Below, piece by piece: positions 8,457-18,107 of a stretch of 21,487 nt of DNA (positions are counted from its first letter, which is position 1; each line of letters starts with the position of its first letter). The DNA is taken from the IMG/VR virus record IMGVR_UViG_3300025652_000666, positions 1 through 21,487 of that record; one strand, written 5' to 3'. Both the position numbers and the translations under genes were made by a program. The notes below the pieces were generated by a model. It was not told the DNA's origin, did not search any database, and was given only the letters and a program-made list of their open reading frames with translations. The DNA comes from a virus.

Positions 8457-8473
8457 GTGTTATAGTATATATC
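8457..8473 (-). promoter_or_regulatory. Candidate late promoter (GATATATACTATAACAC)
   Basis: The motif lies 24 bases upstream of the internal-protein gene start and immediately after the gp23 terminator, where a new transcript is needed. It matches the recurring GATATATA-type motif. Confidence 0.4.
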
Positions 8474-8566: not shown

Positions 8567-10048
8567 TTATGCTAATGTTAATAAGTTTTTAGTAGATAAT
8601 GTACCGATAGTTACCTTGAAAGTAACATATTGTGTTTCTGGGTGGAATCCAGCGTCAACTAATGCGAATCTAGACTTTACAGCAATCTTAGGAGCCATTG
8701 TTCCTTCAGCGATTGTTTGTACAGACTCAGCCATTAAGTAAGGCATGAATACAACACCAGGTCCGTTTCCGTCACCTTTTCTTCCTACAGTTACAGAGTA
8801 ATCTCCCCATGCCATTGTTGGATCAGTGTAAACATTGATTCCAGCAACAGATCCTAATGGGTAGATAGCTCCTGCAGCTTGTGCAAAAGTGTTAGCCATT
8901 GGGTTTGCAACGAATCCAGAAACTGACTGTAATACAGTTGCAGTTTGTGGTCCAACTACAGCGAAGTTACCAGCACCTCTTCTACCTCTGTTAGCAATTA
9001 AGTTAGCAGCTGCAAGAATTTGTGATAATATTCTTCTGTGTACTGATGGTAAAGTTTCACCACCACCACCTAACGCAGATGCTAAAGGTAAATCTAAATC
9101 GAAACCATTTACAACGAATGCAGCAGTTACGTTAGCCGTACCTAATGCTCTTAATCTCTTTAAGATATGTTGGTTGATTGATTGAGTTAATTCGTTAGTT
9201 AATACTGCTTCTACTTGAGCAACAGCATCTACACCGAATTGTTTTAAATCTTGTACTTGTTCTCTAGTAACTGCAGCAGCAACTTGGAAAGTTTCAGCAG
9301 CAACACTTTTAGAGAATAAAGAAAGACCCATTATTTTGTCAGCAGTAGATTCACCAGCTTCTCTTGAGTAAGGAGTTCCATCTTCGTCAGAAGCAGTAAA
9401 TCCTTTGATGTGATCTTCTAATCCTTTTACTAATTCAACAGTAACTCCAGCTCCAGCAGCATAAGCTTCTAAATCAGCAGCAACGTTTGCGTTAGCACCA
9501 TCGATAGAAACTACTTTAAAGATTGATTTACCATCAATTCTTGAAGATCCTACGAATGTATATTCACCGTTAGTACCAACTACAGCAGCGATATTTGCAA
9601 CTCCTAATAAAGTTTCATCACCTTTGATGTAAGTTGGAGCAACAGTACCGTCAGCACCGTTAGCGGTACCTAATGCACCACCTTCGTAAGTAAAGTCTAA
9701 GTAAGATAATAATCCCATTGGTCCAGCCATAGGAACTACAGGTACTAAATCTAAACCGATAGTTTGTGCAGCAACTTGCATTGCTAATGGTAATAATGAT
9801 GGAGCTTTGTCTCCTGAACCTCTTTGGTCAGCAAATGATACTGCCATGTTTGGAAGAGTTGTTGCACCCATACCAGCTAAGTTCATACCTGGATTTAAAG
9901 ACATTGTTGAAGCGTCTTCATATAGTTTGTGATTGTGACAGTATTCTGACATCCACGCTAATTTGTTAGCGTCTGTGATACCTGTCGCAGATTCGATGAT
10001 TGGAGACCAAGTTGCTTTGATCTCTGACTCGTTAATTAAATTTGCCAT
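8567..10048 (-). CDS. 23: Major capsid protein (gp23)
   Basis: A 493-residue protein; T4 gp23 has 521. The N-terminus (ESEIKATWSPIIESATGI) matches the start of gp23 proteins, where a helix with KWxPLLE precedes the cleaved propeptide. The body has the HK97-like pattern of the family: GLDLVPVVPMAGPMG, KSVAAETFQVAAAVTREQVQDL-like E-loop and spine region, NFAVVGPQTATVLQ, and a late VKSRFALVDAGFHPETQYV. The Gly/Ala-rich composition fits an abundant structural protein. Prohead protease sites fitting the family rule are IIE19-S20 and LYE44-D45. The gene follows the protease-scaffold gene, the T4 order 21-22-23. Its 182-base leader holds two hairpins, and a strong terminator follows the stop. Confidence 0.93.
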   Translation of the reverse strand: MANLINESEIKATWSPIIESATGITDANKLAWMSEYCHNHKLYEDASTMSLNPGMNLAGMGATTLPNMAVSFADQRGSGDKAPSLLPLAMQVAAQTIGLDLVPVVPMAGPMGLLSYLDFTYEGGALGTANGADGTVAPTYIKGDETLLGVANIAAVVGTNGEYTFVGSSRIDGKSIFKVVSIDGANANVAADLEAYAAGAGVTVELVKGLEDHIKGFTASDEDGTPYSREAGESTADKIMGLSLFSKSVAAETFQVAAAVTREQVQDLKQFGVDAVAQVEAVLTNELTQSINQHILKRLRALGTANVTAAFVVNGFDLDLPLASALGGGGETLPSVHRRILSQILAAANLIANRGRRGAGNFAVVGPQTATVLQSVSGFVANPMANTFAQAAGAIYPLGSVAGINVYTDPTMAWGDYSVTVGRKGDGNGPGVVFMPYLMAESVQTIAEGTMAPKIAVKSRFALVDAGFHPETQYVTFKVTIGTLSTKNLLTLA

Positions 10049-10139: not shown

Positions 10140-10165
10140 TGATCGATATGTTTTAATATTAATAT

Positions 10166-10216
10166 ATATCAGTATTATTTGATTAGCTTTTCGCTTTTTT
10201 TAAATAATACTGATAT
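10166..10216. repeat. Long 15-bp inverted repeat between protease-scaffold and capsid genes
   Basis: ATATCAGTATTATTT (10166-10180) and AAATAATACTGATAT (10202-10216) are perfectly complementary, separated by 21 bases that contain a short nested AGC/GCT pair. The repeat starts 15 bases after the protease-scaffold stop. On the minus strand it lacks a T tract, so it is not a classical terminator; it may protect or process the message or attenuate readthrough before gp23. Confidence 0.65.
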
Positions 10217-10230
10217 TTTTATTGATTCTA

Positions 10231-11670
10231 TTACTTTTTAAACCTTTTAGCTATCTCTGCACCTATTTCAGATGTATCATAACCTATAGTTTTTATTGGT
10301 TCTTTAGATTCTGTAACCATTGCTACTTTTTCCATAACAACTACAGTATCTCTAAGGTCTCTTGTTTGCCAAAAGTTAGCCACTTGGTAAGAAGTTTCTA
10401 ATTTAACCATTTTAGACTGTGCTAAAATTTGGTTTTTCTTTGCTTCTGATAATTTGTTCCATTTTGCATGGTATTCAGTTGGCATCATTGAAATTACATT
10501 TGGAGTGTTTGTTGTTTCAACAGCACCCATTAATGAGTTTTTCCATAATCCTAATATTTGTCCTTCAGTTAAATAACCTTTACCTTCGATTGCGTTAGCA
10601 ACTTTAGTTTTTTCTTCAGTATCTAATGCATTGAATTCGTTTACCTTTGCTTCAGATATAAATTTAAAGAATGATGGGTTTTCAGATTTCTTAGCATTTA
10701 CCTTTTCAACTAATGCTTCTAATTTAGAAGTAATTGAGTTTCTGTAAGCTTCCATTGCATCTTCTTCAGATTCTTCTTCAGATTCTTCTTCTTCAGATTC
10801 TACTTCTACTTCAACTTCAATGTTTGTTTCATCAATTTCTTCTCCCGCAGCATCACCTTCACCTTTAAGTTCTAAGTCAGCTTCAACGTCTTCTTTCTTT
10901 TCAGCATGCTCTAATTCATTTCCGTCAGCATCTACTGTTAGTTCAGTAACATCTACAGTTTCATCTTCTAATTCTTCAGCGGGAACTCCAGCTGAATCTT
11001 CTTTGATTTCTTCACCTTCAGCATCTCCTTCGCCTTCAAGCTCTAAGTCTTCTTCAGCATCTTTAGTTTCTCCGTCAATTACATTATCATCAGCATCGAT
11101 AACATCTATTGAAACGTCTACTGTTTCATCTTCCATGTCTTCAGCTTCGATTCCAGCCTCATCTTCTAATAATAAGTTAGAGTTTACTGTTTCAGCAACA
11201 TATTCAGTGTATTCAGTAACTTTCTCTAAGTTCTCTCTTAAATATTCAATGTACTTGGTCATGTTTTCATGAGTAGTAGCACCTTCATTATAAGATTCTG
11301 CTAAATAATTTGTGTAATTTTTGATTTGATCAACTCCTTCAGCAATATGCTCAGAATATTCAATAGAATTATCTAGTGTTTTTGCTAAGTTTTCAGAATA
11401 TTCAATAGAATTATCTAGTGTTTTTGCTAGTGATTCTGAATATGCTATTCCTTGATCTGCTTTTTCTGCAACATGCTCTGAATATGAAACTGATTCATCT
11501 AGTTTTTTAGCTAAATAATTAGTATATTCCTTTAGTGTTTCCATCTGAGATTTAGTAGATTCAGTATCGTCTGAAGTATTCATACCCTCTTTGATGGTTT
11601 TGATTTCTTCCGAAAGATACTGAGAGTACTTATTAAAATCCTCAACGGTAATAAATTTTGACTCTGCCAT
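10231..11670 (-). CDS. 22: Possible nested in-frame scaffold gene (gp22-like), internal start
   Basis: An ATG at 11670 in the same frame as the protease gene is preceded by TATAAACGAAACAAAA, closely matching the leader just before the gp23 start (ATTTAAAACAAA), and both continue ATGGCA. Initiation here would give a 479-residue protein, MAESKFITVEDFNKY..., containing all the scaffold-like region and none of the protease. The break falls exactly where a T4-sized gp21 would end. Lambda makes its scaffold Nu3 in this way inside protease gene C. It is listed as a second product of the same reading frame; whether it is made is inference. Confidence 0.5.
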   Translation of the reverse strand: MAESKFITVEDFNKYSQYLSEEIKTIKEGMNTSDDTESTKSQMETLKEYTNYLAKKLDESVSYSEHVAEKADQGIAYSESLAKTLDNSIEYSENLAKTLDNSIEYSEHIAEGVDQIKNYTNYLAESYNEGATTHENMTKYIEYLRENLEKVTEYTEYVAETVNSNLLLEDEAGIEAEDMEDETVDVSIDVIDADDNVIDGETKDAEEDLELEGEGDAEGEEIKEDSAGVPAEELEDETVDVTELTVDADGNELEHAEKKEDVEADLELKGEGDAAGEEIDETNIEVEVEVESEEEESEEESEEDAMEAYRNSITSKLEALVEKVNAKKSENPSFFKFISEAKVNEFNALDTEEKTKVANAIEGKGYLTEGQILGLWKNSLMGAVETTNTPNVISMMPTEYHAKWNKLSEAKKNQILAQSKMVKLETSYQVANFWQTRDLRDTVVVMEKVAMVTESKEPIKTIGYDTSEIGAEIAKRFKK

Positions 11671-12261
11671 TTTTGTTTCGTTTATATTTTCTATTTGTTT
11701 TTGTGTATCATTAGTATTATTTATCTCGTAAATAAAGAGATCGTTACCTTCGTTAAGGAAACCATAAGATTCGTTAACTCTTTTAAGTTCTGCATTTTCA
11801 AATCCAGGATCTGCAACTAAATCATACGTAAATAATTGTTTGATTTTTACAGTACCGTTAGATTCGACAGCTCCAGCTGCTCTTGAAGAAATTTGTAAAG
11901 GAACTCCTGCATCGACTAAAGCTTTAGCTTGGCGTCCAGCATCAGTATCTAATAATCTGATTCTTCCTTTAATTTGTTTAGTTTCCTTATCATATATCAA
12001 TTCCTCGATGATATGTGATACATTTTTAAGAGATACATCAAAGTTACTAGGGTGATCTAATTCACCAAGTAATTTTGAAGATTTAATTTTAGCCTGTAGA
12101 GCTTCAATTTGTGGTAGGTATTCGCCTTCAGTATAAATTCGGTTATTACGATTTTTCTTATCGATTTCTCCAAAGATACCCTCTAGAACATAGGTCCCAC
12201 CATCTTGTTTAAACTCTAATTCTGTGGATGATCTTTCTAGGATCAGTAAGTTATTAGTCAT
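10231..12261 (-). CDS. 21: Prohead protease fused to scaffold (gp21-gp22-like)
   Basis: A 676-residue protein. Residues 1-197 form a T4 gp21-type (peptidase family S78) serine protease: catalytic candidates are H70 (LLGELDHPSNF), S125/S126 (LQISSRAAG) and an acidic residue in DLVADPGF near 151. T4 gp21 is about 212 residues, so this part is a whole protease. From 198 on it is scaffold-like: a run of 14-residue coiled-coil repeats (about 246-364), two 55-residue acidic repeats (about 369-479), a Glu-rich stretch, and a helical end closing IGAEIAKRFKK, reminiscent of the T4 gp22 end (AKVASRF). No separate gp22 gene lies between it and gp23. Met198 has a strong start context, so a separate scaffold may be made too. 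The start at 12261 follows a candidate promoter. Confidence 0.88.
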   Translation of the reverse strand: MTNNLLILERSSTELEFKQDGGTYVLEGIFGEIDKKNRNNRIYTEGEYLPQIEALQAKIKSSKLLGELDHPSNFDVSLKNVSHIIEELIYDKETKQIKGRIRLLDTDAGRQAKALVDAGVPLQISSRAAGAVESNGTVKIKQLFTYDLVADPGFENAELKRVNESYGFLNEGNDLFIYEINNTNDTQKQIENINETKMAESKFITVEDFNKYSQYLSEEIKTIKEGMNTSDDTESTKSQMETLKEYTNYLAKKLDESVSYSEHVAEKADQGIAYSESLAKTLDNSIEYSENLAKTLDNSIEYSEHIAEGVDQIKNYTNYLAESYNEGATTHENMTKYIEYLRENLEKVTEYTEYVAETVNSNLLLEDEAGIEAEDMEDETVDVSIDVIDADDNVIDGETKDAEEDLELEGEGDAEGEEIKEDSAGVPAEELEDETVDVTELTVDADGNELEHAEKKEDVEADLELKGEGDAAGEEIDETNIEVEVEVESEEEESEEESEEDAMEAYRNSITSKLEALVEKVNAKKSENPSFFKFISEAKVNEFNALDTEEKTKVANAIEGKGYLTEGQILGLWKNSLMGAVETTNTPNVISMMPTEYHAKWNKLSEAKKNQILAQSKMVKLETSYQVANFWQTRDLRDTVVVMEKVAMVTESKEPIKTIGYDTSEIGAEIAKRFKK
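10825..11157 (-). repeat. Two tandem 55-residue acidic modules in the scaffold
   Basis: Copy 1 starts at 11157 and copy 2 at 10992, a period of 165 bases. Shared residues include AG..AE..EDETVDV, DAD.N, then DLEL.GEGDA.GEEI. Their strongly acidic composition recalls the scaffold and core fragments that remain in T4 heads after gp21 cleavage. Confidence 0.8.
11170..11526 (-). repeat. Tandem 14-residue (42-bp) coiled-coil repeats in the scaffold
   Basis: Six consecutive units of the form Y[ST]xxLAxxLDxSIx start at 11526 and recur every 42 bases, followed by a half unit and two weaker ones. The unit is two heptads. Two neighbouring units are nearly identical in DNA, sharing 37 identical bases (11351-11387 and 11393-11429), which suggests recent duplication. 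Confidence 0.85.
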
Positions 12262-12281: not shown

Positions 12282-12293
12282 TTATTATATATC
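12282..12293 (-). promoter_or_regulatory. Candidate late promoter before the protease-scaffold gene
   Basis: GATATATAATAA lies 20 bases upstream of the start at 12261. It is one of the closest matches to the recurring motif in this window. Confidence 0.4.
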
Positions 12294-12318: not shown

Positions 12319-12660
12319 TTATATGTCTGCCAATGGATCTAGGCCAGCATCACCTTCAGCTTCCTTTTCAGCTTCCTTTTCCTTTTCAGCCTGTTCCTCG
12401 GTATATTCGTTAAAATATTTTACCAATGTGGACATGTCCTCTGCCGTAAATGATCCATTTCCATACTGATCATAGAAGTATTGTGTAAATTCCTTTTCAG
12501 TCTTAGAAGATAAGATAGCTCCTAGAATTTCAGTTGATTTAATTTTATCTCCTGAATCCAGACTAGTATCATCTATTAATACTTTAGAATCATTACCTGC
12601 CTCTATTGCGTCCTCCTGTAGTGATCCAGTGAACTCCTCGAATGTTTTTATTGTATTCAT
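12319..12660 (-). CDS. Small acidic prohead-core protein (position of gp67/gp68)
   Basis: A 113-residue acidic protein lying between portal and protease, where T4 has the small core proteins gp67 and gp68. It begins MNTIKTFEEFTGSLQED, one of three capsid-targeting-like starts in the window; LQE at 14-16 would fit gp21 cleavage. The C-terminal third is a Glu/Lys-rich helix (TEEQAEKEKEAEKEAEGD), like T4 core proteins rich in acidic repeats. The middle (ILGAILSSKTEKEFTQYFYDQYG) is predicted helical. The role in prohead core assembly is inferred from position, charge and tag rather than clear homology. Confidence 0.7.
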   Translation of the reverse strand: MNTIKTFEEFTGSLQEDAIEAGNDSKVLIDDTSLDSGDKIKSTEILGAILSSKTEKEFTQYFYDQYGNGSFTAEDMSTLVKYFNEYTEEQAEKEKEAEKEAEGDAGLDPLADI

Positions 12661-12703: not shown

Positions 12704-14296
12704 TTAAAAAGCCATTGGATTTTCTTCCTCAGGTTCTTCTGCCTTTGCAGCTGCACTTCTTGCTTTATATGCGTCGTTTGCTGCCTTATCATCAGGGCTT
12801 AGTTTTAAGTATCTATCGACAAGGAATTCCATATTAAAGAATGGTTCCTCTTCCATCGTTACAGGATCAACTTTCATTAATGAATCTTGCATACTGCCAA
12901 TGAAACTTAATCTCTTTTCCATTATTTCCATCTGCTTTAATTCAGCAAACATATTCTCTTCATTAAATTGTAATGAGATTTGAGTTTTAAATCCAGCGTC
13001 ATCCTTAAATTCAGGAAATTTAAGACACATTTGTAACCATAATGGTTTTACTAATATTTCCTGAAAAGAACTTCTTAATCTTGTAACGAATTTTGCAAAT
13101 TTAATTTCATCTCTAATCATTCCATCTGCTTCCATTGCAAAATCTCCACCACCATCTTCATACATAAATCTAGAGTATGGTATTTTTGAAACTGACTTAA
13201 GTTTATCTGAAAAGTATTTTAATGATTCGGTATCGTTTAATTCAGGTCCTTCTCCTCCTAGGGTTTCAATCTCAGGCTGTTCACCGTCCTTGCTAGGTAA
13301 CCAATATTCTTTATTGAATTGTAACATAGGTTTCCCATTAGTTGTCAGAGATGCACTGTCCCAATCAAAATCTACAACTTCCTTATAGTTATTCATTAAC
13401 TGTGAAAGCGATTGTTTTGCTCTTGTTTTAGATTTACCTCCAACTGGTATAATGAACTTCATTCTATAAGATGAGTTTGTAACAGCCCAAATAACTCTGG
13501 TATGTTCCATAATTCTCATCAGGTTAAATGATCTTACCAATCTTTCTAGGTAACTTACTCTCGATGCTGTGGTAATTGAAGAGTATGATATGTATACAAT
13601 CTGTGAATCATATAGCTTTCTCTCTTTCAGTGGATCATCTTTAAATTGTATCCATACCTTTTTACCATCTTCATGGTTATATGCCGGTAGTAACGTTACC
13701 GGGTCAATTTCCTTAAAACCAATAATTTCAGTTTGTTCAGGATTATAAATGATTTCAAATGATAAGTAACCATCAATCAACCATTTTCTAAAGAAGTACC
13801 ATACTGATTGGTCTGATGCAAATCCAAAATATTGATATATTTCTCTATATGATTTATTAAGATATTTCTGAACATCATCAGAAACTTCCATTCCAATAAT
13901 TTCAGGGTTAGCTATAAAATTCTTGTTATCAAATACGATAGATTCATCACATAAAATATCTAAGATGTCTTCTATCTCATCATGCTGTGAAAACTTTCTC
14001 AGCTCATCTCTTTTACCTTTATAATTCTGGTCAAAGAAAGGAATATTTTTACGCATTGTAGTATCAGCCATTGATAATGCTGCGAACGCGCCATACATAT
14101 CGTCGCTGTCTAATCCCTGTGGGTTCATTCCACCATATCCGAATTCGTCCTCTGCTGGACCAATTGCTTGTGACTGCCTAAGTACTAAATCATCATAGTA
14201 CATTCCAAAGGAAGATAGTTTTTTAAGTGAATCACTTAACGTAAATGCCCTCCTGTTGGTACTTAAAGGCCCGTTCCTTTCTACAAATCCTGCCAT
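12704..14296 (-). CDS. 20: Portal protein (gp20)
   Basis: A 530-residue protein, close to T4 gp20 (524). It carries the typical sequence track of the family: early KNIPFFDQNYKGKRDELRKF and EIEDILDILCDESIVFD, then WYFFRKWLIDGYLSFEIIYN, then the core segment VIWAVTNSSYRMKFIIPVG, and SRFMYEDGGGDFAMEADG with FAKFVTRLRSSFQEIL. Twelve copies form the head vertex ring through which DNA enters and to which the neck binds; it also nucleates the prohead. It lies upstream of the core protein and protease, the T4 order 20-67/68-21-22-23. A candidate promoter overlaps the end of the preceding gene. The C-terminus is Ala/Glu-rich and likely flexible. Confidence 0.92.
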   Translation of the reverse strand: MAGFVERNGPLSTNRRAFTLSDSLKKLSSFGMYYDDLVLRQSQAIGPAEDEFGYGGMNPQGLDSDDMYGAFAALSMADTTMRKNIPFFDQNYKGKRDELRKFSQHDEIEDILDILCDESIVFDNKNFIANPEIIGMEVSDDVQKYLNKSYREIYQYFGFASDQSVWYFFRKWLIDGYLSFEIIYNPEQTEIIGFKEIDPVTLLPAYNHEDGKKVWIQFKDDPLKERKLYDSQIVYISYSSITTASRVSYLERLVRSFNLMRIMEHTRVIWAVTNSSYRMKFIIPVGGKSKTRAKQSLSQLMNNYKEVVDFDWDSASLTTNGKPMLQFNKEYWLPSKDGEQPEIETLGGEGPELNDTESLKYFSDKLKSVSKIPYSRFMYEDGGGDFAMEADGMIRDEIKFAKFVTRLRSSFQEILVKPLWLQMCLKFPEFKDDAGFKTQISLQFNEENMFAELKQMEIMEKRLSFIGSMQDSLMKVDPVTMEEEPFFNMEFLVDRYLKLSPDDKAANDAYKARSAAAKAEEPEEENPMAF

Positions 14297-14320: not shown

Positions 14321-14330
14321 TTATATATTC
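14321..14330 (-). promoter_or_regulatory. Candidate late promoter before gp20
   Basis: GAATATATAA lies 24 bases before the portal start and overlaps the stop codon of the upstream gene. It matches the recurring motif, with AATAAAA following. Confidence 0.35.
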
Positions 14331-14920
14331 TTTTTAAAATAGTCCTCAAACTTAGTTAAAACTTCTCGTATATTTGTGTTATTTAACTCCATTAAGTCGC
14401 ATAATGCCATTTCAGGCCATTTCGAATAACTTATCACCACCTGATCTTTTTTGTTTGATGGTATATATTGTCTGAGAGCAAAATCATAACCAAATTTCTT
14501 CAGGTATTTTTTCATACCCTTATATGATATTGTAAGTTGACTCTCGTTTAATGGGTCCTTTGTTGTTGCATTCGTATTTTTAATAATTCCAGCCATTCTT
14601 TCATAAACGTCATCTAGTAACTGTTCCTTTACCTTGGTTGGAAGTAGGTTTAAATTAACTCCAAAGTCATTTTTTCCAACCTCTTCAATTGCAAGCACGA
14701 CTGGATTCTCATCAAACCATGGTAATTCTTTAATATATTTAGGAGAATAATTAAATGTGTATATCTTACCTACCTGAAACCTACCTCTAGTGGATTTGGT
14801 CTCAACTACCTTTTTATCATTAATAGATTCATTGAACCATTCTGTGATTTTAGTAGTGGCAGCTGCCCTGTTACCATATTCCCTAGTAAGTTCTCTTATT
14901 CTCTTTTTAACGTAGCCCAT
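14321..14920 (-). CDS. Probable virion or packaging protein, 199 residues
   Basis: It has a distinctive segment, GKIYTFNYSPKYIKELPWFD, followed by NPVVLAIEEVG and GVNLNLLPTK. This is a pattern (YxPKxxxxLPxxDxxPxVL...GxNLxxLP) I associate with a family of T4-like phage proteins, but I cannot fix its function. The N-terminus is basic (KKRIRELTREYGNRAAA). It overlaps the gp4-like nuclease gene by 14 bases and precedes the portal. In T4, gene 4 has gene 2 (DNA-end protector, about 274 residues) and gene 53 (baseplate wedge, 196 residues) as neighbours, so one of these roles is possible. I do not see gp53-like sequence. Calling it a gp2-type protein would be a guess from context. Confidence 0.7.
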   Translation of the reverse strand: MGYVKKRIRELTREYGNRAAATTKITEWFNESINDKKVVETKSTRGRFQVGKIYTFNYSPKYIKELPWFDENPVVLAIEEVGKNDFGVNLNLLPTKVKEQLLDDVYERMAGIIKNTNATTKDPLNESQLTISYKGMKKYLKKFGYDFALRQYIPSNKKDQVVISYSKWPEMALCDLMELNNTNIREVLTKFEDYFKKNI

Positions 14921-15841: not shown

Positions 15842-15856
15842 GATATATATAATAAC
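15842..15856 (+). promoter_or_regulatory. Promoter-like motif for the collagen-like gene
   Basis: GATATATATAATAAC on the plus strand lies 22 bases before the ATG at 15879. It is the same motif type and spacing as the minus-strand candidates, which supports an independently transcribed plus-strand unit. Confidence 0.45.
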
Positions 15857-15878: not shown

Positions 15879-16235
15879 ATGGTAGGAATATTAATTAGTA
15901 TTGCAATTCTTATAGGTGGTGCATCTCTGTATCTGTCTATGGTGAATGCAAAGAAAATCAAAACAATGTCTATTACACAGGCTGGACCGGTTGGAAAAGA
16001 TGGTAAAGATGGTAAAGATGGAGTTGCTGGACCAATGGGAGCCCAGGGAATGACTGGACCTCAAGGTAAAGCTGGTATAGCTGGAAAAGCAGGAAAGGCT
16101 GGTAAAGCTGGAGTTGCTGGACCAATGGGACCAATGGATGATTCTTTAAGAACTGAAGCTGAAGAATTCGTTGAAGGAAGATTAAATGAAATCATCGTGG
16201 AACGTATCGAAGAACGTTTAAACGGTGAAGGATAA
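15879..16235 (+). CDS. Membrane-anchored collagen-like protein
   Basis: A 118-residue protein in three parts. Residues 3-22 are a hydrophobic segment (VGILISIAILIGGASLYL), a signal anchor or membrane helix, followed by a basic patch (NAKKIK). Residues 36-86 are 17 uninterrupted Gly-X-Y triplets, rich in GKD, GKA and GPM, the pattern of a collagen triple helix. Residues about 88-115 are a charged amphipathic helix (TEAEEFVEGRLNEIIVERI) that could trimerise. Collagen-like repeats occur in phage tail fibres and in surface proteins, but a membrane anchor is not expected in a fibre. It is one of two plus-strand genes, flanked by a promoter-like motif and a terminator, so it may be an acquired host-interaction gene. 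The function is unknown. Confidence 0.85.
   Translation: MVGILISIAILIGGASLYLSMVNAKKIKTMSITQAGPVGKDGKDGKDGVAGPMGAQGMTGPQGKAGIAGKAGKAGKAGVAGPMGPMDDSLRTEAEEFVEGRLNEIIVERIEERLNGEG
15984..16136 (+). repeat. Gly-X-Y triplet tract (collagen-like coding repeats)
   Basis: Fifty-one codons give 17 Gly-X-Y triplets. In DNA, short repeats of GGTAAAGAT and GGTAAAGCT-like 9-mers are visible, a substrate for slippage and length change. Confidence 0.85.
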
Positions 16236-17124: not shown

Positions 17125-17135
17125 GTTATATATCC
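17125..17135 (-). promoter_or_regulatory. Candidate late promoter (GGATATATAAC)
   Basis: Lies 22 bases before the 253-residue hypothetical protein, with AAAAGAAATAAATTAAAATAAT between. The spacing equals that of the plus-strand motif at 15842. Confidence 0.4.
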
Positions 17136-18095: not shown

Positions 18096-18107
18096 ACATT
18101 ATATATC

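Follow-up and report, generated by a model that had tools for sequence, protein, structure and literature searches.

The window analyzed here, a viral DNA of 21,487 nucleotides (IMG/VR record IMGVR_UViG_3300025652_000666, positions 1 to 21,487), carries what appears to be a conserved scaffold start nested in frame within a gp21-type prohead protease gene. In-frame nested scaffold genes are already known from phage lambda and from herpesviruses; what is new here is their apparent occurrence in a T4-type gp21 protease gene. No earlier description of a nested scaffold start with such a protease was found in the literature outside subscription papers. The phages involved form a large, widespread, uncultured T4-like group. 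Very probably, the best explanation of these sequences is that one late mRNA is translated from two in-frame starts, yielding both a fusion of protease and scaffold and the scaffold on its own, and that the protease cuts these products later.

The ORF in question is flanked by a portal gene of the gp20 type and a capsid protein gene of the gp23 type, which were recognized with the Portal_T4 and Gp23 profiles (Table 1). The original prediction read this single 676-residue frame as a gp21-type protease followed by a scaffold-like region, and database comparisons bear this out. Residues 22-135 match the Pfam family Peptidase_S77 (E 3.5e-11; 43.4 bits versus a cut-off of 27), residues 1-197 match the PHROGs family phrog_207 "head maturation protease" (E 4e-43), and there is also a match to T4 gp21 in its solved structure (5jbl; E 7e-4). 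The ORF contains the motifs GELDHP (His70), ISSRAAG (Ser125/126) and YDLVADPGF (Asp147/151), and GE[LF]DHP, SSRAAG and TYDxVADPGF are kept in 13 diverse relatives. By analogy with gp21, these His, Ser and Asp residues are putatively catalytic. The protease was also predicted to break off where a T4-sized gp21 would end. This is roughly correct, but the core ends near residue 165 and is followed by a 33-residue linker that leads to Met198.

Table 1. Features of the fused protease-scaffold ORF and its surroundings (positions in the window)
Feature	Position	Strand	Basis or remark
Fused protease-scaffold ORF, 676 aa	10231..12261	-	~76 kDa, pI 4.3
gp21-type (S77) protease domain, ~residues 13-165	11767..12225	-	Pfam, PHROGs, 5jbl, motifs of relatives
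Candidate protease release site, Val162-Asn163-Glu164	11770..11778	-	[VIM][NYQS]E[SAE] in relatives; cleavage by inference
Linker, residues 166-197	11671..11766	-	Junction peptides of relatives; low-confidence model
A-rich putative initiation leader of internal start, 15 A/20	11671..11690	-	Sequence composition
Putative internal start codon ATG, Met198	11668..11670	-	Conservation in relatives
Putative nested scaffold gene (gene 22 equivalent), 479 aa	10231..11670	-	Position before gp23 and composition
Helical region, residues 206-362	11176..11646	-	Prediction; low model confidence
Conserved C-terminal helical domain, residues 495-640	10342..10779	-	Best-modelled part of the prediction
GATATATA late-promoter-like element	12286..12293	-	24 nt upstream of fused ORF
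gp23 major capsid protein	8567..10048	-	Directly downstream of fused ORF; Gp23 profile
gp20 portal	12704..14296	-	Upstream of fused ORF; Portal_T4 profile
Small ORF, 113 aa, between portal and protease	12319..12660	-	Place of T4 genes 67/68; synteny only
GATATATA late-promoter-like sites	8466..8473, 10163..10170, 17127..17134, 18100..18107	-
GATATATA late-promoter-like site	15842..15849	+

The remainder of the frame, residues 198-676, is acidic (~54 kDa, pI 4.2, 26% D+E) and has no Cys. It is predicted to be mainly helical in an AlphaFold model of the full protein, the confidence of which is low (mean pLDDT 48.7), and residues 206-362 contain repeats of ~14 residues of the YSEYLAENLDNSI type. 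Searched alone, residues 198-676 match no informative PHROG family, and comparison with the gp22 proteins of 12 phages gave weak matches only (best E 0.005, Moby). The scaffold-like region has 21 [ILV]xE sites versus 16.8 +/- 3.3 in shuffled sequences, which is no clear excess. We name it a gene 22 equivalent from its position before gp23 and its composition, without a family match. No other ORF between portal and gp23 in the window is a candidate for a separate gene 22, and the 113-residue ORF located there matches no PHROGs family. The gp23 protein is presumed to be both the substrate of the protease and the partner of the scaffold. By a simple pattern count, ~14-residue repeats (YSEYLAENLDKNI type) number 10 in megaphages of 635-735 kb (L087, L088, L089 and L090), and 3-9, mostly 4-6, in other complete relatives; repeat number could be related to head size.

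To collect relatives of the fused ORF, IMG/VR contigs were scanned three times and bacterial genomes once, and megaphage records were added. These yielded 236 related ORFs including that of the window, 201 of them complete. Some represent the same contig fetched twice, so counts of distinct junctions are the better measure. The original prediction proposed that relatives be compared for conservation of Met198 and its A-rich leader and for division of the frame into genes 21 and 22. None of the 236 ORFs shows a clean split. Three frames that are complete but short (L172, L251 and L201) look truncated or damaged, and separate genes 21 and 22 occur only in more distant phages, for example T4, cyanophages, 121Q, Deifobo and Campylobacter phages. 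The arrangement of these split genes was considered as a trace of an old fusion, as genes 21 and 22 share one frame in 8 of 12 split T4-like phages. This count supports no conclusion, because some hits were picked for having a match that crossed the junction in one frame.

Each of the 105 distinct junction peptides matched by motif has a Met immediately ahead of the scaffold start. Since the motif search itself demands a Met, the count of failures is a fair measure of conservation: a clear junction Met is absent from at most 3 of 233 sequences examined. Seventeen sequences were unmatched by the motif, and in most of these the junction Met is present by eye. The exceptions are L201, in which the start is cut off, and the divergent L226 and L244, in which the choice of Met is ambiguous. 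The linker that leads to this Met (36 to 93 residues, measured from near the PGF motif of the protease core) is rich in N, K, E and T before the Met and forms a coil in the low-confidence model, and its sequence changes completely among relatives.

The leader of Met198 reads gaaaatataaacgaaacaaaaATGGCA, with gaaaatataaacgaaacaaaa preceding the Met. It is close to the ..ttaaaacaaaaATGGCAAAT leader of gp23 in relatives, in keeping with the predicted near identity to the leader of the gp23 start. At least 14 A residues in the 20 nt upstream are found in 0.12% of 1688 internal in-frame ATG contexts, and Met198 has 15, so its A-richness is more than chance. This feature is shared by relatives. The mean number of A residues per 20 nt is 13.5 in junction leaders and 7.8 in the leaders of 626 other in-frame Mets from these ORFs, and at least 12 A are present in 82% of junction leaders versus 3.5% of other in-frame Mets. 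The junction Met ranks first for its leader in 100 of 105 ORFs. Megaphages of 460-735 kb keep the Met with a less A-rich leader (9-12 A/20). Among the first 59 distinct junctions, ~95% of distinct leaders have A at -3, and the region from -20 to +20 is less paired at the junction Met than at other in-frame Mets (unpaired 0.66 versus 0.45). The context score of Met198 is modest, exceeding 98% of those for internal ATGs but lying only at the 19th percentile of presumed starts.

Bacteroidota do not use Shine-Dalgarno pairing for initiation, and in Flavobacterium johnsoniae, initiation is favored by A at -3, -6, -12 and -13 together with low structure (PMC6847099). The leader of the junction Met, A-rich, weakly structured and lacking a Shine-Dalgarno sequence, is by its composition of this Bacteroidota type. 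Bacteroidota are the apparent hosts of the phage group. This view draws on the type of leader, on kinship with Tenacibaculum phage PTm1 and on three bacterial-bin hits: L173 (Muribaculaceae), L174 (Bacteroidales) and L175 (Psychroflexus). L173 and L174 have the same layout as the window. These three are among four convincing hits in bacterial bins. The fourth lies in a SAR324 bin and is possibly a misbinned phage; a fifth hit, L176, is short and weak.

Synonymous divergence provides a further line of evidence. In the clade of the window (23 non-redundant sequences), synonymous divergence reaches its minimum for the 676-codon frame at codons 192-204 (family-wise permutation p=0.002), whereas the same test on five neighboring genes in the same clade gave p values of 0.15-0.68. 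In a second clade, the region of the Met is the third-lowest window (local p=2.5e-4), which is not significant family-wise, and in a third clade of four sequences the lowest window, codons 185-198, ends at the Met. Because silent sites are constrained at the Met and the linker is variable, these data indicate that nucleotides, rather than amino acids, are conserved around the junction Met. For another ORF, 14321-14920(-), silent divergence in the second-clade homologue is lowest at codons 186-198 (p 0.031). This dip adjoins the end of that ORF and the start of the portal gene, and is perhaps due to the overlapping portal leader.

Silent-site constraint alone does not reveal the function of an element, and the A-rich stretch might serve another purpose, such as RNA processing or regulation, with the Met being incidental. 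We regard this as highly improbable, since the constraint spans both the ATG and its leader, A occupies -3 with the frequency noted above, and the Met holds its place while everything around it changes. The same observations bear on the proposal that only the full-length fusion is made and is later cut by the protease, as with gpO of phage P2, with Met198 standing in a disordered linker by chance. AT-rich genomes easily yield A-rich linkers, PTm1 is a fused relative that lacks a junction start, and [V/I]xE-S sites beside the junction are conserved. However, a chance residue would not be expected to persist in 105 of 105 distinct matched junctions amid unconserved linker protein sequence, to have a leader far more A-rich than those of other in-frame Mets, or to sit at the center of a silent-site constraint that neighboring genes lack. 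A full-length product alone is thus improbable. The two products suggested by the original prediction, a fusion and a free scaffold, are the better reading of a Met and leader that persist, a linker that varies and silent sites that are constrained.

The free scaffold might instead be translated from a shorter mRNA of its own, with a promoter inside the protease region, which would be a variant of the two-product reading that resembles herpesvirus UL26.5. The sequence GATATATA resembles the late-promoter element of T4 and is a candidate for the late promoter of these phages. It occurs six times in the window, each time upstream of an ORF, and is found upstream of the fused ORF in all relatives whose leader was inspected, except PTm1. 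A related sequence, GATAAATA, differs from it by one base. Most inspected members of the window's clade have it 52-58 nt upstream of Met198, which would fit an internal promoter; in L005 it is at -27. Yet it is absent from the other clades checked, although Met and leader are kept there, and it also encodes the linker residues E-I-N. No exact GATATATA is present inside the fused ORF in the 14 sequences inspected. An internal late promoter, for which only GATATATA-type motifs were tested, is therefore not conserved among clades, and a separate scaffold mRNA seems unlikely. Because there is no conserved internal promoter, internal initiation on a shared late mRNA is the simplest reading and the likely mechanism. 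Elsewhere in the window, the ORF at 15879-16235(+) encodes collagen-like repeats (GKDGKDGVAGPMGAQG) on the strand opposite to the adjoining structural genes.

With internal initiation as the mechanism, transcription from the promoter 24 nt upstream would produce one late mRNA that is translated from two in-frame starts. Initiation at Met1 would give a gp21-gp22 fusion, the scaffold half of which may bring the protease into the growing prohead core. Initiation at Met198, by way of its A-rich leader without a Shine-Dalgarno sequence, would give free scaffold, presumably in excess. We infer this ratio from T4, whose proheads contain ~580 gp22 versus ~55 gp21 (PMC9958956). A fusion alone would provide equal amounts of protease and scaffold, whereas an internal start makes an excess of free scaffold possible. 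After the shell has formed, the protease would cut [V/I]xE sites. A cut at the conserved VNE164-S would separate the protease from its scaffold tail, and the protease would then trim gp23 and clear the core.

The sequence Val162-Asn-Glu164 is the best candidate for a release site. Of 105 distinct relatives, 104 have the motif [VIM][NYQS]E[SAE] after the protease core, T4 gp21 has ITE-S at a comparable place near its C-terminus, and gp21 cleaves Alt after ITE and LTE, with C-terminal autocleavage having been suggested for gp21 itself (PMC5694885). Another candidate, [IL][YF]E at residues 177-179, is kept in the clade of the window, but is IYR or IYK in distant relatives. It is more likely to be structural, and VNE164-S fits better.

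Among known systems, T4 genes 21 and 22 have the same place between portal and gp23 and an S77 protease, but a stop and 30 nt of intervening sequence keep the two genes apart. An annotated internal start in T4 gene 21 lies near the N-terminus of gp21 and yields no scaffold. In phage lambda, as here, the scaffold gene overlaps the protease gene, but lambda C belongs to another protease family (S49, ClpP-like) and a different capsid lineage. The lambda C/Nu3 pair was originally cited as the precedent, and is a fair comparison; the closer one is herpesvirus UL26/UL26.5, given the kinship of its protease with gp21. C and Nu3 are encoded by a single gene according to Shaw and Murialdo (1980), as cited in PMC8508860. 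Phage P2 (gpO) and phage Mu likewise have protease and scaffold in a single gene (PMC8508860); their capsid lineages are unrelated to that of the window's phage. The single ORF-300 of PTm1 (L004, 2929-4698) precedes gp23 and is annotated "prohead core scaffolding protein and protease." In contrast to the window's ORF, it lacks any ATG, GTG or TTG in frame at its junction and thus gives no evidence of nesting. A fused homologue without an initiation-like leader is also present in Streptococcus phage GXN1 (L098, 3001-4677), where the ORF is unannotated; neither fusion has an evident internal start.

As in the window, herpesvirus UL26 encodes a protease-scaffold fusion and UL26.5 is a 3'-coterminal, in-frame scaffold gene. 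A release site and linker precede the scaffold start in herpesviruses, as they do here if the putative release site is genuine. The pUL26C product is 21 residues longer than pUL26.5 (PMC4498786), and the assemblin protease is related to gp21 (PMC5694885). In contrast to the start described here, which looks translational and has no conserved internal promoter, UL26.5 has its own promoter and mRNA. The comparison covers layout and protease. Since PTm1 shows that fusion occurs without a junction start, common descent with the herpesviruses is not established, and independent origin of the two nestings is the default. It is rather improbable that the T4-like group, which includes relatives of marine megaphages, makes its prohead core from a UL26/UL26.5-like nested gene with a homologous protease in an arrangement that is ancestral. 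Inheritance of both would make the nested protease-scaffold gene an ancestral trait of tailed phages and herpesviruses alike, with the split genes 21 and 22 of T4 as a derived state.

A nested start may explain how an apparently Bacteroidota-infecting T4-like branch could have a supply of free scaffold although it lacks a separate gene 22. It also offers a route to finding scaffold proteins in giant phages, for which a gp22 counterpart was unconfirmed as of 2017 (PMC5694885). If true, a homologous protease would connect the T4 prohead with the design of herpesviruses. In addition, a translation start lacking a Shine-Dalgarno sequence apparently determines the sequence of a protein linker, and gene finders overlook starts of this kind. 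Finally, the hit in the SAR324 metagenome bin (L172; CAJJCY010000001.1, 593835-600347) is a close relative on a 606.7 kb contig, with 88% identity over the protease and a shortened ORF of 408 residues, and is possibly a phage contig that was binned with a bacterium.
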